Program-made: the position numbers and the translations under genes | Assembly (NCBI RefSeq): GCF_003933245.1 | Contig: NZ_QUSX01000001.1 | Coordinates: 1,674,001-1,738,000 of the forward strand | Direction of reading: 5' to 3' | DNA length: 64,000 bases | Origin: Maribacter algicola | GTDB taxonomy: Bacteria; Bacteroidota; Bacteroidia; Flavobacteriales; Flavobacteriaceae | Notes under the pieces: model-generated | Database searches by the model: none | The model's input: the letters and a program-made list of their open reading frames with translations, nothing else | Told to the model about the DNA's origin: nothing | Shown here: one piece after another, positions 22,472 to 28,223 of the stretch | Numbering within the stretch: position 1 is the first letter of the stretch | How the letters are laid out: every line of letters begins with the position of its first letter

Positions 22472-24424
22472 TCATCGCTTCAAGGTAAAATGCCCGGTAC
22501 GTACCAAGGTGTCCAATTTTATACGGTACCAATAATCCGATTCGGGCATGGGCGACCCCAAAAAGTTTCCGTCCCAAGAGGCATTGCCACCGCTGCCAAA
22601 TTTTAACAATTTCCCATACCGATCAAAGATGGAAAGCTCCACATGGTTAAAGGACTCGATTCCTTCCGGAATTAAAAAGTCATTGGAGGTATCCCCATTC
22701 GGTGTAAAGAAATTGGGGACAACAATATGTAGATAATCGGTCGTGATGATGCCGCAGTTGGTCTTGTCCCTAATGGAAATGGTATACGGTCCTCCCGTAA
22801 CTGATTCAAAAACGGGGCTGTCCTGAAAATTAATTCCATCTAAGGAATATTCAAAACCCCCAGAATTTTGGGTGGCAACGATGATGGAGCGTCCGTTGGA
22901 AGTAATCGAATCCAATCTAGGTGCATCGATCTGTTCCAAAATAATGGTTCGCGTGTTGGAGCATCCATTTACATCCGTTACGGTAACGGAATACTCTCCT
23001 GGAGCGCTAACGGAAATATCACGCGTTGACGCTCCAGTACTCCAGGCATAGGTTACGTTATCTATTTCAGCAGATAACATTGCCGCATCTCCCTCGCAAA
23101 AAGTTACCTTGCTATCAAAAACGGGGGGTAAAGGATTAAAGGTCAGGGTGACTGCAGTTCTGGAATTCGAAGGACAATCAACTTCACTTGAATTTGCTTC
23201 TGCGTAATATGTACCGGCAACTGTTGGGGAGATTTCCCTTCTGTTTTCAAAAAGCAGGTTGCCTCCCGCAGGGGCATCGTACCAATTTACCGTATAAATT
23301 TGCGGACTTTGTACGGATACTATAGCGGTTTCATTTTCGCAGGCGACTCTATTTCCATTGCTTATTGGCGGCGGCGGAATGGGTACGATATTGATCTCGA
23401 ATACATCCGATAGCACATTACAAAGATCATTGGACACGTTGATGGCATCTTCCGCAACTTTTACACGGTAAAAACGGGTCGAATTTACCAGTGGGGTGGT
23501 AAAGGTATTGGACGTTTCACCGGGAATGTCGGTCCAAACTTGATTATCTGTACTTTCCTGCCATTGGTAGGCATGGGTCGAAAAAATGGAATTGTCTGGA
23601 TTGGCCATCAAGGTTGCGCCAATAGCCCCTTGGTTCTCACAAGTAATGATAAAATCTTCCGATTGGTCTGTGGTGACCGATACGGAATCCCCACAGGATT
23701 TAAATACGATATCGTCTATGGCGAGGTCATTTCCACATCCACCATTACTATTGTTTCGCATTTTGAGGATAACGGAAGTCTGTCCTGGTAGCGTTTGAAA
23801 GACCAGTGCATATTGTTCCCACTCGGCGTTTGTACGTGCTGGAATATTTCCCGTATCTCCTTGGGCCAAAAGATTTGTATCTGTCTCGTCCCATATCTGA
23901 AATCGTACGTTTACAGGGATACTATTTCCCTCACACCCTCCTTGGGGCTGTAAGTTTACCAACCAAGATGAAAACTCGTAGGTGGTATTTTCGCAAAGAC
24001 CTACCACCTGTCTTTGATAAAACTCGCCGGCCGTAAAACTTGCGTTGACAATAAATGCCTTTCCATTATTGTCTCCAGGAGTATGGTCCTCTAAATTCTG
24101 CCAGTCAAAATAATTGGTAGTGCTGGAAATGGTATAGTCACCGTCGTTGGGCGTTCCTGTGGTAAAATTATAGGTGGTGGTTCCTGGTGGTAATGCGGGG
24201 CCATCTACAATACCAGAACCAAAGTCTTCGGTAAAAATAGGGTCTCCGGAACTACCAGTACAAAAACCGAGCTGGGCCCTTCCTTCCAAAGAGACCAAAA
24301 ATAGGAAGAGAAGAAAACAAATAAAGTATTTGGGACTTAGTGTATTCACGGAATTAAAGATACGGTTTTGGTATAGAAAGTACCGGTTTTTTAGTTCAAT
24401 GAAGTTATAGGTGTAATTCGTCAA
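22472..24424 (-). CDS. T9SS type B sorting domain protein with Ig-like repeats
   Basis: About 650 residues. The N-terminal signal peptide ends at EGRAQ. An N-terminal jelly-roll-like region (about 55-240: TEDFGSG, WQNLEDHTPG, CGNDLAIDDIVFKSCG) is followed by Ig-like or PKD-like repeats (about 245-540) and a gliding-motility-type C-terminal domain (570-650: VVPNFFTPNGDTSNDFLIPEG, ending FTLKR). That domain directs export through the T9SS and cell-surface attachment. An alternative GTG start at 24349 gives a more normal signal peptide (NTLSPKYFICFLLFLFL). The likely role is adhesion. Confidence 0.9.
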   Translation of the reverse strand: MTNYTYNFIELKNRYFLYQNRIFNSVNTLSPKYFICFLLFLFLVSLEGRAQLGFCTGSSGDPIFTEDFGSGIVDGPALPPGTTTYNFTTGTPNDGDYTISSTTNYFDWQNLEDHTPGDNNGKAFIVNASFTAGEFYQRQVVGLCENTTYEFSSWLVNLQPQGGCEGNSIPVNVRFQIWDETDTNLLAQGDTGNIPARTNAEWEQYALVFQTLPGQTSVILKMRNNSNGGCGNDLAIDDIVFKSCGDSVSVTTDQSEDFIITCENQGAIGATLMANPDNSIFSTHAYQWQESTDNQVWTDIPGETSNTFTTPLVNSTRFYRVKVAEDAINVSNDLCNVLSDVFEINIVPIPPPPISNGNRVACENETAIVSVQSPQIYTVNWYDAPAGGNLLFENRREISPTVAGTYYAEANSSEVDCPSNSRTAVTLTFNPLPPVFDSKVTFCEGDAAMLSAEIDNVTYAWSTGASTRDISVSAPGEYSVTVTDVNGCSNTRTIILEQIDAPRLDSITSNGRSIIVATQNSGGFEYSLDGINFQDSPVFESVTGGPYTISIRDKTNCGIITTDYLHIVVPNFFTPNGDTSNDFLIPEGIESFNHVELSIFDRYGKLLKFGSGGNASWDGNFLGSPMPESDYWYRIKLDTLVRTGHFTLKR

Positions 24425-24452
24425 TATCTTTTCAACTTTCGTCGAATAGGCC

Positions 24453-24460
24453 TATTTTTG
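24453..24460 (+). promoter_or_regulatory. -7 element (TATTTTTG) for leuS
   Basis: A perfect TAnnTTTG box, placing the transcript start near 24467 and giving leuS a leader of about 75 bases. It lies 8 bases from the divergent -7 box at 24469-24476. Confidence 0.6.
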
Positions 24461-24468
24461 TGCCCTAA

Positions 24469-24476
24469 CAAAACTA
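24469..24476 (-). promoter_or_regulatory. -7 element for the T9SS type B gene
   Basis: Read on the minus strand this is TAGTTTTG, a perfect TAnnTTTG match, 45 bases upstream of the ATG at 24424. The two divergent promoters overlap face to face. Confidence 0.5.
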
Positions 24477-24540
24477 AGGTCCAAAATGATAAAGCCGTAT
24501 GGCATAAATTGGTTTGGACCAACCATATAGTACAGAGATA

Positions 24541-27500
24541 ATGAATTACAATTTCAATGAAATTGAGGCCAAATGGCAAAAATATTGGGCGGATAATCAA
24601 ACCTTTAAAGCCGAAAATGTATCGGACAAGGAGAAGTTCTATGTGTTGGATATGTTTCCCTATCCTTCTGGGGCCGGACTCCACGTAGGCCATCCGTTGG
24701 GGTATATCGCAAGTGATATCTATGCCCGTTATAAGAGACACAAAGGATTTAATGTTTTGCATCCGCAGGGATATGACTCCTTTGGTCTGCCGGCGGAACA
24801 ATATGCCATTCAAACCGGGCAGCACCCTGCCATTACTACCGAGGCGAACATCAAAACCTACAGAAGGCAGTTGGACCAATTGGGGTTTTCCTTTGATTGG
24901 AGTAGGGAGGTACGTACTTCGGATCCTAGCTATTATAAATGGACCCAGTGGATTTTCATTCAATTGTTCAATTCCTGGTACAATACCGATGCCGATAAGG
25001 CCGAGGATATAGAGACGCTGATCAAGATTTTTGAAACCGAAGGTAATAAAAGCGTCCATGCAGTTTGTGATGATGATACTCCAATTTTTTTAGCGGAGGA
25101 TTGGAATTCTTTTTCTTCCAAAGAAAAACAGGAGATTCTATTAAAATATAGGCTTACATATTTAGCCGAAAGTGAGGTCAACTGGTGTCCGGCTTTGGGG
25201 ACCGTGCTCGCCAATGATGAAATTGTGAACGGAGTTTCTGAGCGTGGGGGACATCCCGTTATCCGAAAGAAAATGACGCAATGGAGCATGCGCATCACCG
25301 CTTATGCCCAGCGATTGTTGGATGGGCTGGACAAAATCGACTGGCCACAGCCTCTAAAGGATTCCCAGACCAATTGGATCGGGCGTTCTGAAGGAGCCTC
25401 GGTAACTTTCCCCATCCTAACCTTCCCCATAGGGGAAGGAACCAAACCGGGTTATTTAACGGGCGGAAACAATTCACATTTATTATTGGAAAGGGCCAAG
25501 GAAATGAGAAATAATCCTACTGCAGCCGAGTCAGTTTTATGGGATGGTTTAAAATCTAAGCAACTGGGCTTCAAATTTAGGAGACAACACTTAATAGCCG
25601 ACTACATTGTAGATTTTGTGTGTCTTTCCAAAAATTTGGTGATAGAGGTCGATGGTGGTATCCATGATTCACAAATAGAAGCCGATGCATCCAGAACAGA
25701 AGTGTTAAATCAGCAAGGATTTGAAGTCCTACGGTTTAGAAATGAAGAGGTGATAGGCGATCTGGATACCGTTTTAACTAAAATTCAAAGGAATTTAAAT
25801 GAACGCAATATTCCCCCATTGGGGGCTAGGGGGATTGAAGTTTTCACCACCCGCCCCGATACCATTTTTGGGGTTTCTTTCATGACCCTGGCACCGGAGC
25901 ATGAATTGGTGTCCCAAATCACCACCCCTGAACAAAAAGCTGAGGTTGAGGCCTATATCGAGGCTACGGCAAAGCGCTCCGAACGCGACCGTATGGCGGA
26001 TGTAAAGACGATTTCAGGAGCCTTTACCGGGGCGTATGCCGAGCATCCTTTTACCAAGGAACCCGTACCTATTTGGATCGGTGATTATGTATTGGCGGGT
26101 TATGGTACGGGAGCGGTGATGTCCGTTCCCTGCGGCGACCAGCGCGATTACGATTTTGCGACCCATTTTGGGATAGCTATTCCTAACATATTCGAGGGAG
26201 TGGATATTTCCGAAGAAGCTTATGCCGAAAAATCCGGATTTGTATTGAAGAATTCTGGGTTTTTGAACGGATTGGGGTACAAGGAAGCTGCCAAAATGGC
26301 CATAGCCGAATTGGAAAAATTGGGTCAGGGTAAGGGCAAAGTGAACTACCGTTTGCGCGATGCCGTCTTTAGCCGTCAACGCTATTGGGGCGAACCCTTT
26401 CCGGTCTATTATGATGCCGATGGTATACCTCAGATAATCGAAACTCAATATTTGCCCATTACCTTACCGGAAGTAGAAAAGTACCTGCCTACGGAAACAG
26501 GGGAACCACCTTTAGGCAATGCTACGGAGTGGGCTTGGGACACTAAAAATAATGAAGTGGTATCCAATGAGCGCATAGACCATAAAATCGTTTTTCCCTT
26601 AGAGTTGAACACCATGCCGGGTTGGGCGGGGAGTTCCCAGTATTTCAATCGCTATATGGACCCGCATAACGACGAGGCCATTTTCTCTCAAGAAGCCATC
26701 AACTATTGGCAGGATGTGGATCTATACATAGGCGGTAGCGAGCATGCGACAGGCCATTTGCTGTATTCCCGTTTCTGGCAAAAGTTCATGTTCGACAAAG
26801 GTTTGGTGCCCAAAGATGAGTTTGCCAAAAAACTCATCAATCAGGGGATGATTACTGGTGAAAGTGCATTTGTAAACATTATTGAGGGAAGATTAAGAAA
26901 TGGCAATGAAGATATAAGTGGACAATGCCAAATTATTGTGAGCAAAGAACTGTATGAAAGCTTAGAAAAAAATGAGGGGAGCTTAGGTCAACTACCGAAA
27001 AAAATATCGTCTTTCTTGGATGAAAGACTGAGTTATCACCAAGATTTTAATCCTGACAATAGTGAATACGATAAATATTACAAAGCCTTTAAATCGACTC
27101 AAATAAATGTTGATTTTGTTAATCTTAAAAATGAATTTAGATTTTTAGACTTAAAGGATGATGCTAGGTTGTCGGAAATTGGAAGTGCACACTTTTTTGA
27201 TGGTGAAAATATTATACCGAATGAAAAAATGACCAAAGAAACTTTGGGGAAAGTTTATCGTGAGGTTGAAAAAATGTCCAAATCCAAATACAATGTGGTC
27301 AATCCAGATGCCATTTGTGAAGAATATGGGGCGGACAGTCTACGGTTGTACGAAATGTTCCTGGGGCCTTTGGAGCAGTCCAAACCTTGGAACACGGCAG
27401 GGATTACGGGGGTGCATTCCTTCTTGAAAAAACTTTGGAGGCTTTATCACTCCGGTCCTAACGGAGAATTTTATGTAACGGACACCCCTCCATCGGAGGG

Positions 27501-27966
27501 GCAGGGGGAGGCTTTAAAAACCCTTCACAAAACCATCAAAAAGGTAGAGGAGGATATTGAAAACTTTAGTTTTAATACCTCGGTATCGACCTTTATGATC
27601 TGTGTCAACGAATTGTCAGCGCAGAAATGCAATTCCAGGGCCATCTTGGAACCTTTGGCCATTTTGGTTTCGCCCTATGCGCCACATATCGCGGAGGAAC
27701 TTTGGGAGCAATTGGGCCACACGGAGTCCATTTCCACAGCACCTTTCCCAAAATTCGAGGAAAAGTATCTGGTGGAAAGCAGCAAGGAATACCCCATTTC
27801 CTTCAATGGGAAGATGCGCTTTAAACTGGAACTTCCTATGGACATGGGCAAAGAGGAAATCGAAGCGGCTGTTATGGCCCATGAAAAAACCCAACAACAA
27901 TTAGAAGGGAGAACCCCTAAGAAGGTCATCGTAGTTCCTGGGAAAATTGTAAACATTGTTGGCTAA
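24541..27966 (+). CDS. leuS: leucyl-tRNA synthetase with an in-frame DUF559 nuclease insert
   Basis: 1141 residues, against about 920-960 in relatives. The class I core is intact: HVGH (PSGAGLHVGHP, near residue 50), a CP1 editing domain with TTRPDT (about 436-441), and KMSKS (911-915). The start ATG at 24541 matches the usual YNFNEIEAKWQKYW beginning; TTG at 24514 is not needed. Three additions are seen: a full DUF559 nuclease domain in residues 291-431, just before TTRPDT; an extra AT-rich stretch of perhaps 60 residues before KMSKS; and a REP-like hairpin translated as TPPSEGQGEA near the C-terminus. All keep the frame. As the only leuS seen and with no broken motif, it is probably functional. 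Confidence 0.95.
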   Translation: MNYNFNEIEAKWQKYWADNQTFKAENVSDKEKFYVLDMFPYPSGAGLHVGHPLGYIASDIYARYKRHKGFNVLHPQGYDSFGLPAEQYAIQTGQHPAITTEANIKTYRRQLDQLGFSFDWSREVRTSDPSYYKWTQWIFIQLFNSWYNTDADKAEDIETLIKIFETEGNKSVHAVCDDDTPIFLAEDWNSFSSKEKQEILLKYRLTYLAESEVNWCPALGTVLANDEIVNGVSERGGHPVIRKKMTQWSMRITAYAQRLLDGLDKIDWPQPLKDSQTNWIGRSEGASVTFPILTFPIGEGTKPGYLTGGNNSHLLLERAKEMRNNPTAAESVLWDGLKSKQLGFKFRRQHLIADYIVDFVCLSKNLVIEVDGGIHDSQIEADASRTEVLNQQGFEVLRFRNEEVIGDLDTVLTKIQRNLNERNIPPLGARGIEVFTTRPDTIFGVSFMTLAPEHELVSQITTPEQKAEVEAYIEATAKRSERDRMADVKTISGAFTGAYAEHPFTKEPVPIWIGDYVLAGYGTGAVMSVPCGDQRDYDFATHFGIAIPNIFEGVDISEEAYAEKSGFVLKNSGFLNGLGYKEAAKMAIAELEKLGQGKGKVNYRLRDAVFSRQRYWGEPFPVYYDADGIPQIIETQYLPITLPEVEKYLPTETGEPPLGNATEWAWDTKNNEVVSNERIDHKIVFPLELNTMPGWAGSSQYFNRYMDPHNDEAIFSQEAINYWQDVDLYIGGSEHATGHLLYSRFWQKFMFDKGLVPKDEFAKKLINQGMITGESAFVNIIEGRLRNGNEDISGQCQIIVSKELYESLEKNEGSLGQLPKKISSFLDERLSYHQDFNPDNSEYDKYYKAFKSTQINVDFVNLKNEFRFLDLKDDARLSEIGSAHFFDGENIIPNEKMTKETLGKVYREVEKMSKSKYNVVNPDAICEEYGADSLRLYEMFLGPLEQSKPWNTAGITGVHSFLKKLWRLYHSGPNGEFYVTDTPPSEGQGEALKTLHKTIKKVEEDIENFSFNTSVSTFMICVNELSAQKCNSRAILEPLAILVSPYAPHIAEELWEQLGHTESISTAPFPKFEEKYLVESSKEYPISFNGKMRFKLELPMDMGKEEIEAAVMAHEKTQQQLEGRTPKKVIVVPGKIVNIVG
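25408..25439 (-). repeat. REP-like hairpin, left edge of the DUF559 insert
   Basis: CCTTCCCC (25421-25428), a 3-base loop ATA, and GGGGAAGG (25432-25439) form a perfect 8-bp hairpin. It is preceded by TTCCCCATCCTAA, the reversed form of a TTAGGATGGGG tail. It points opposite to the hairpin on the right edge. Confidence 0.75.
25811..25834 (+). repeat. REP-like hairpin, right edge of the DUF559 insert
   Basis: CCCCC (25813-25817), loop ATT, and GGGGG (25821-25825), followed by CTAGGGGG. It has the same plan as the left-edge hairpin in inverse orientation. It is translated as IPPLGARG, and the ordinary editing-domain sequence resumes at IEVFTTRPDT. Confidence 0.75.
26905..27105 (+). other. AT-rich extra segment in leuS before the KMSKS loop
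   Basis: The stretch between GMITGESAFV and KMSKSKYN is about 140 residues, against about 80 in the Bacteroidota LeuRS I recall. The extra part (about SGQCQIIVSKEL to YKAFKSTQ) is visibly richer in A and T than the rest of leuS. It is not flanked by obvious repeats. It may be a transferred allele segment or a lineage-specific insertion. The edges are approximate. Confidence 0.5.
27486..27512 (+). repeat. REP-like hairpin read in frame near the leuS 3' end
   Basis: CCCCTCC (27485-27491), loop ATC, and GGAGGGG (27495-27501), followed by CAGGGGGAGG. It has the same design as the two hairpins that bound the DUF559 insert, but here it stands alone. It is translated as TPPSEGQGEA between GEFYVTD and LKTLHKT. 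Confidence 0.75.
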
Positions 27967-28016
27967 AAGGATCTTCAACCCCGCCAAGTACTAAAAGGCA
28001 ACCAGTAACATTATTC

Positions 28017-28064
28017 ACGCCCTCCTTCTTTAGGGGTATACTAAAGCGGGAGGGTGTTTTTTTT
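28017..28064 (+). terminator. intrinsic terminator after leuS
   Basis: ACGCCCTCC and CTTTAG on the left pair with CTAAAG and GGGAGGGT on the right across a short loop. A run of eight T follows. Confidence 0.85.
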
Positions 28065-28223
28065 AATATTTTATTTATTTTTTTGAATATCCCCCCATAA
28101 AAATTAGGGGTAAGTATCTAAGAATTGTATTTAATAAGTATTAACCCTTCCTTTTATCGAATAATTGTTCTATAAAAATTAAAATTATCGCACCTTTACC
28201 CCATAATTTTAAATTTGATCATT

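Follow-up and report, generated by a model that had tools for sequence, protein, structure and literature searches.

The presence of homing nucleases in conserved genes is commonly attributed to the introns or inteins that house them and remove the damage. Inteins with a homing endonuclease interrupt conserved regions of essential proteins in frame, with the nuclease inside and a sporadic distribution. The palindromic elements of Rickettsia are short and non-autonomous and are not known to encode a nuclease. One report describes palindromic DNA in frame inside open reading frames of Rickettsia (PMC3733652), and two others already document EDxHD/Vsr-like homing nucleases (PMC3943268, PMC9403480). 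The type member of the EDxHD homing endonucleases is I-Bth0305I (PDB 3r3p, an entry titled mobile intron protein), which carries extra DNA-binding regions (PMC3943268). Here we describe an in-frame insert in leuS, the gene for leucyl-tRNA synthetase (LeuRS), in a 64,000-nucleotide stretch of the Maribacter algicola genome (the window). We think it likely that the insert is a compact homing-type mobile element, in which a Vsr-fold nuclease sits between inverted terminal hairpins and is read as part of one open frame.

The insert in leuS

The leuS gene is a single open frame of 1141 residues (24541..27966, + strand) that carries the element, as judged from the frame itself, Pfam and NCBIfam. We place its start at the ATG at 24541 because the database copy P0001 also has 1141 residues; with the alternative start, a TTG at 24514, the frame (24514-27966, +) is open over 1150 codons. 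The window LeuRS scores 901 bits against NCBIfam leuS_bact TIGR00396 (cut-off 548), and in the whole protein Pfam finds the LeuRS editing domain PF13603 (7.3e-50), tRNA-synt_1 and Anticodon_1 around a DUF559 domain. The element runs from left end to right end at 25410..25833 (+), with the ends placed by eye in a comparison of 29 leuS alleles from the genus, and the extra part amounts to 141 codons, 291-431 (25411-25833), in frame with leuS. Allele comparison and alignment to the solved LeuRS 1h3n, which matches on either side of the insert (query residues 205-292 and 432-777), identify the host sequence before it as NWIGRSEGASVTF (residues 278-290; 25372..25410, +) and after it as IEVFTTRPDT (residues 432-441; 25834..25863, +). 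The insert thus ends four residues upstream of TTRPDT, the Thr-rich motif of the editing domain, and the spacing from NWIG..GAS to TTRPDT is 148 residues in the window protein versus 15-34 in the 24 domain-free alleles of the genus. An AlphaFold model of the whole LeuRS (30 rows) was poor (pLDDT 53.7, pTM 0.27), with the strands flanking the insert both in stretches of pLDDT <50, and is not relied on.

The nuclease core, assigned to DUF559 (PF04480) by profile and by fold and active-site comparison, spans residues 318-423 (25492..25809, +), with E-values of 6e-36 in the whole protein and 1.7e-37 for the insert alone, the latter scoring 128.1 bits against a curated cut-off of 20.6. The fold and the catalytic D, E-x-D and H of DUF559 / PD-(D/E)xK Vsr-like nucleases are kept, and active-site comparison gives D358 (25612), E369 (25645), D371 (25651) and H375 (25663), all on the + strand, as putative catalytic residues. 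By these comparisons the nuclease of the insert is of Vsr fold (DUF559) and kin to the catalytic domain of the homing endonuclease I-Bth0305I. The active site is retained in 172-173 of the 173 domains compared, a set that leaves out copies called 'free' (frames of <240 aa in which no known host motif occurs) and includes 9 rows labelled 'other', for some of which the host is unproven.

The left terminal repeat (25410..25439, +), read directly from the sequence, consists of CCCCATCCTAA and the hairpin CCTTCCCC-ATA-GGGGAAGG (25421-25439), the GC-rich inverted end in full being CCCCATCCTAACCTTCCCC-ATA-GGGGAAGG. The right terminal repeat (25813..25833, +) was read in the same way as the hairpin CCCCC-ATT-GGGGG (25813-25825) followed by CTAGGGGG, and is an imperfect inverse of the left end. 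When the right ends are reverse-complemented, they and the left ends follow a common plan, judged by eye, in most hosts read: a C-rich foot, a short spacer often with A, a pyrimidine arm, a loop of about three bases and a purine arm. Of 121 embedded copies with sufficient flanking sequence, 97 have a hairpin of this class on the left, 98 on the right and 82 on both sides, versus 5 of 578 control windows from the same loci. Hairpins flank such domains far above chance, and chance palindromes were rejected on this comparison. The sequence-only reading had described a leuS frame of about 1141 codons, an intact DUF559 domain in 141 codons just before TTRPDT and GC-rich inverted hairpins at its ends, and each withstood examination.

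In the genome of the window, the end pattern has one match with up to 3 mismatches permitted and there are five core palindromes, including the element's own, versus none in the control, and a genome-wide REP family was therefore rejected. The core palindrome is matched in 171 of 395 genomes of the phylum; one of these (G595) has 143 copies versus 0 in its control, far above the five seen here, and other genomes of the phylum are likewise rich. The suggestion that free-standing DUF559 genes of this type carry palindromic flanks holds elsewhere, where short-frame copies have the left hairpin in 21 of 25 cases and the right in 21 of 25, but in the window's genome the only other DUF559 match is weak (L002, contig C1 near 1197285; E 8.9e-5) and, judged by eye, resembles a conventional Vsr mismatch endonuclease.

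We found no means of removing the insert. A Pfam scan of the LeuRS revealed no Hint domain, and the junctions (VTF/PILTF on the left, GARG/IEVF on the right) have neither the starting nucleophile nor the His-Asn end of an intein, which was rejected on both grounds. A group I or II intron was rejected because no intron family matched to E 1 across 24400-28100 and the frame is open throughout. The nuclease domain should therefore remain within the host protein. Pfam also detected no transposase domain in the element. A second intact leuS was rejected since the editing region, used as a single 303-residue query, matches the genome once, and an assembly artefact was rejected because similar LeuRS proteins occur in several named species.

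Alleles, hosts and remnants

Within the genus, 35 of 36 genomes match the leuS region; five of the 35 carry the domain and 30 do not, so that it is not a normal subdomain of the enzyme. The 29 alleles read comprise 5 filled ones, 14 whose loop is plain and 15 residues long, and 10 with loops of 18-34 residues, several of which contain other short repeats or a lone hairpin; a possible remnant was seen in G314. Two types of insert (A and B) occupy the site within this one genus. The type A inserts (those of the window's genome, G000, and of G303 and G321) occur at three places in a tree of leuS flanks, separated by well-supported branches, and the two type B inserts at two; one allele (L080 in G326) was left out of the tree as it gave no motif match. 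In the G303-G321 comparison the insert has a silent identity of 118/137 versus 146/234 in the flanks (100 codons before, 150 after; Fisher p 8.4e-7), and NG86 silent divergence (dS) is 0.25 in the insert versus 0.71 in flanks of 150 codons before and 100 after. With dN at 0.029, dN/dS in the insert is about 0.12, indicating purifying selection.

This loop also holds other sequences. In three genomes (L071 in G320, L074 in G304, L076 in G306) it holds a different in-frame palindromic repeat, coding NNTVTERSRSDENVIST (TGAGCGTAGCCGAAGTGAC), and at L064 it holds a third kind of short repeat. On this evidence several repeat families appear to use the LeuRS loop as a landing pad.

At the recG site of the same 36 genomes we found 4 filled alleles, 1 partial copy (L197 in G323), 28 empty alleles (23 read and 5 deduced from matches separated by only 3 bases), 2 remnants and 1 genome in which the site was not seen. 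Both remnants are right ends kept in frame, one in G306 and the other in the window's own genome (L208, contig C2 near 937553; KGSPRNGEVGGATPP). As far as sequence comparison can tell, the recG site shows the cycle of the element in its filled, partial, empty and remnant states. Elsewhere in the window's genome we noted a photolyase-like frame that opens with an apparent right-end remnant, MTNENSSPSGRSGGATLRLILGDQLN (L225, contig C3 near 94819), a solo element end (L223), and two inverted ends with 17 bases between their core palindromes and no nuclease (L226/L227, contig C7 2312-2362), at a distance of about 13 bases from tRNA-Ala, a gene adjoining tRNA-Ile. This last pair is possibly a miniature copy of the element. 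A further DUF559 match (G323:C545:2646-2975) lies in a 1062-aa frame on a contig other than that of the leuS match of its genome.

The insert is widespread and not peculiar to the window's genome, which corrects the sequence-only reading. A protein search with residues 300-440 matched 1557 database proteins of about 630-2010 aa (E <= 0.001); motifs identify 110 of the 120 matches listed as LeuRS, the other 10 being methionine synthases (MetH) or isoleucyl-tRNA synthetases (IleRS), and named sources include Maribacter, Cellulophaga, Gillisia and Aequorivita. DUF559 matches of any kind occur in 143 of 299 genomes sampled from the family, and a profile of seven embedded domains matches 196 of the 395 genomes of the phylum (E <= 0.001), which we take from the named relatives to be Bacteroidota. 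Reading of frames extended the in-frame hosts to LeuRS (three sites), IleRS (three), ValRS, MetH (two sites), RecG, RecJ, UvrD/RecB-like helicases, acetyl-CoA synthetase, CoA transferase III, a MeaB-methylmalonyl-CoA mutase, an M23 peptidase, two restriction-modification proteins and an amino acid kinase. Terminal fusions add HisD, with the domain at its end, and HemD, IspF, Gmk and a TrmH-like gene, each with the domain at its start, for a total of about 19 gene families. Pfam confirms the LeuRS and ten other scanned frames, and the MetH and IleRS domains appear in the protein search listing; the names RecG, ValRS, HemD, HisD, IspF, Gmk and TrmH are our presumptive assignments from motifs. 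Single genes may also hold more than one copy: a LeuRS (P0003) has tandem copies, pairs occur at different sites of single LeuRS or IleRS genes, and one MetH gene (L032 in G215) has two copies at different sites that are 81% identical over 300 nt.

Inserts tend to lie shortly upstream of conserved motifs, namely TTRPDT in LeuRS, TTRPET in ValRS, TTTPWT in IleRS, VHDIG in MetH, ATPIPRT in RecG and, in one LeuRS, KMSKS; at nine sites measured, the median distance from domain end to motif is 12-25 residues, right end included. Given the homology of the three synthetases, we take the TTRPDT, TTRPET and TTTPWT sites to be equivalent positions. Placement before motifs would fit target sites in conserved DNA, although motifs often adjoin loops anyway. 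A tree of 197 domains (306 hits, 238 of them distinct, further thinned of near copies and of pieces <95 residues, with hits <40 bits dropped) groups by host site, with 44 label changes versus 120 when labels were shuffled and a value as low in 0 of 200 shuffles. The RecG, HemD and RecB-like copies form one group each, while the RecB-like and RecJ copies sit among those of LeuRS. This grouping with exceptions implies that lineages tend to keep one site and sometimes jump.

A probable homing-type element and its alternatives

We favor a scenario in which the element enters conserved genes of Bacteroidota at loops that tolerate an extra surface domain, and is translated within the host protein and not spliced out. 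The host enzyme would keep working with the insert in place. The nuclease would cut empty alleles met after gene transfer, and repair would copy the element into the cut allele. Decay may then end in an in-frame deletion that leaves a scar or nothing, opening the site again. Allele-to-allele mobility, clustering by site with jumps, a kept active site, in-frame remnants and a lack of splicing signals are all supported by the comparisons above. Consistent with what the sequence-only reading had proposed, the sporadic, horizontally exchanged and site-clustered copies favor a homing-endonuclease strategy that operates without splicing. We lean, somewhat less firmly, towards regarding these elements as a class apart: autonomous homing cassettes, unspliced and open over their whole length (hairpin - EDxHD-type nuclease - hairpin), that would invade highly conserved genes throughout the phylum by giving essential enzymes an extra translated domain, repeatedly reach the equivalent editing loop of LeuRS, IleRS and ValRS, and pass through gain, decay and loss without splicing.

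Several observations weigh against this scenario: (i) by eye, each allele reverts at the right junction immediately to the sequence of its own lineage, and the nearest flanks are the part of leuS with the lowest similarity (11/22 and 8/24 silent matches), so that the long co-conversion tracts usual for homing are not seen; (ii) over the first 252 leuS codons silent identity between G303 and G321 (0.83) is close to that of the insert (0.86), and flank recombination could therefore explain part of the silent-site contrast; (iii) the genus tree was built from leuS and is not a species tree; (iv) LeuRS site 1, with 15 label changes in the domain tree, is no single lineage, and that tree has 194 inner branches of which 93 are weak; (v) the HemD copies, the weakest host, have hairpins on the left in 3 of 9 and on the right in 4 of 9; (vi) collection of domains by similarity may hide badly decayed copies; and (vii) by eye, no target-site duplication is apparent at the leuS and recG junctions, where a few host codons are replaced. 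Cutting of empty alleles, copying by repair and a working host enzyme are themselves inferred.

The alternative that survives best, which we nonetheless consider unlikely, is that the hairpins mark the ends of a small transposon, mobilized by a transposase acting in trans or by replication slippage, with DUF559 as passenger or helper. The likeness of inverted ends in most hosts would be explained in this way, as would the nuclease-free pair near tRNA-Ala, the solo end and the photolyase-like remnant, and the two MetH copies imply movement to a new place. A passenger, however, would hardly be expected to keep its active site in nearly every domain when none of the host genes is known to depend on it, nor would a transposon be expected to cluster by site, and the missing target-site duplication may count against transposition as well.

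More improbable still, in our opinion, is an accessory domain that is passed on vertically and performs a job for the cell, such as regulation of LeuRS or a guard against foreign DNA. Purifying selection on the insert and the large number of matching long proteins would be in keeping with such a job. This possibility is at odds with the presence of the leuS insert in so few genomes of the genus and in separate lineages there, with the exchange indicated by silent sites, with the same domain within unrelated enzymes and with empty alleles that retain a plain loop. The least probable account, an ancestral leuS insert lost many times without horizontal movement, can draw on losses that do occur (the recG remnants and the possible leuS remnant), but the losses seen leave hairpin remnants whereas about half of the leuS alleles read have the plain loop, and it accounts poorly for two insert types at one site within one genus and for the silent-site contrast between insert and flank.

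Comparison with known systems

What sets these elements apart is the finding of a related nuclease fold in conserved genes with no removal step, so that one of the host's essential enzymes bears an additional domain. That a hairpin-ended element occurs in many housekeeping proteins suggests a little-noticed route for selfish DNA inside essential genes. If correct, this would account for many 'LeuRS + DUF559' annotations, assign a likely function to DUF559 and reveal which protein loops tolerate a domain of about 140 residues; in addition, one genus supplies natural filled, empty and scarred alleles for direct tests of homing. The literature searched yielded no description of an unspliced nuclease cassette inside essential proteins, although one may exist elsewhere.

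With regard to the systems introduced at the outset, EDxHD enzymes are encoded in introns or inteins or as free-standing genes, whereas the leuS element lies in frame without intron or intein and has inverted hairpins as its ends. Like inteins, it sits in frame in a conserved essential protein, has its nuclease inside and is sporadic; unlike them, it has no Hint domain or splice residues and no means of excision. It recalls REP/RAYT and MITE systems in its short GC-rich terminal palindromes and a possible gene-free miniature copy, but differs from them in having no transposase domain and few copies in the window's genome. As in the Rickettsia palindromic elements, the end hairpins are read in frame, but here 141 codons, with a DUF559 domain between the palindromes, are inserted. 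On sequence evidence, then, we would call it a homing-type element and not a proven homing endonuclease, one in which known parts (EDxHD/Vsr-like nucleases and in-frame palindromes) appear in a combination that is apparently new.
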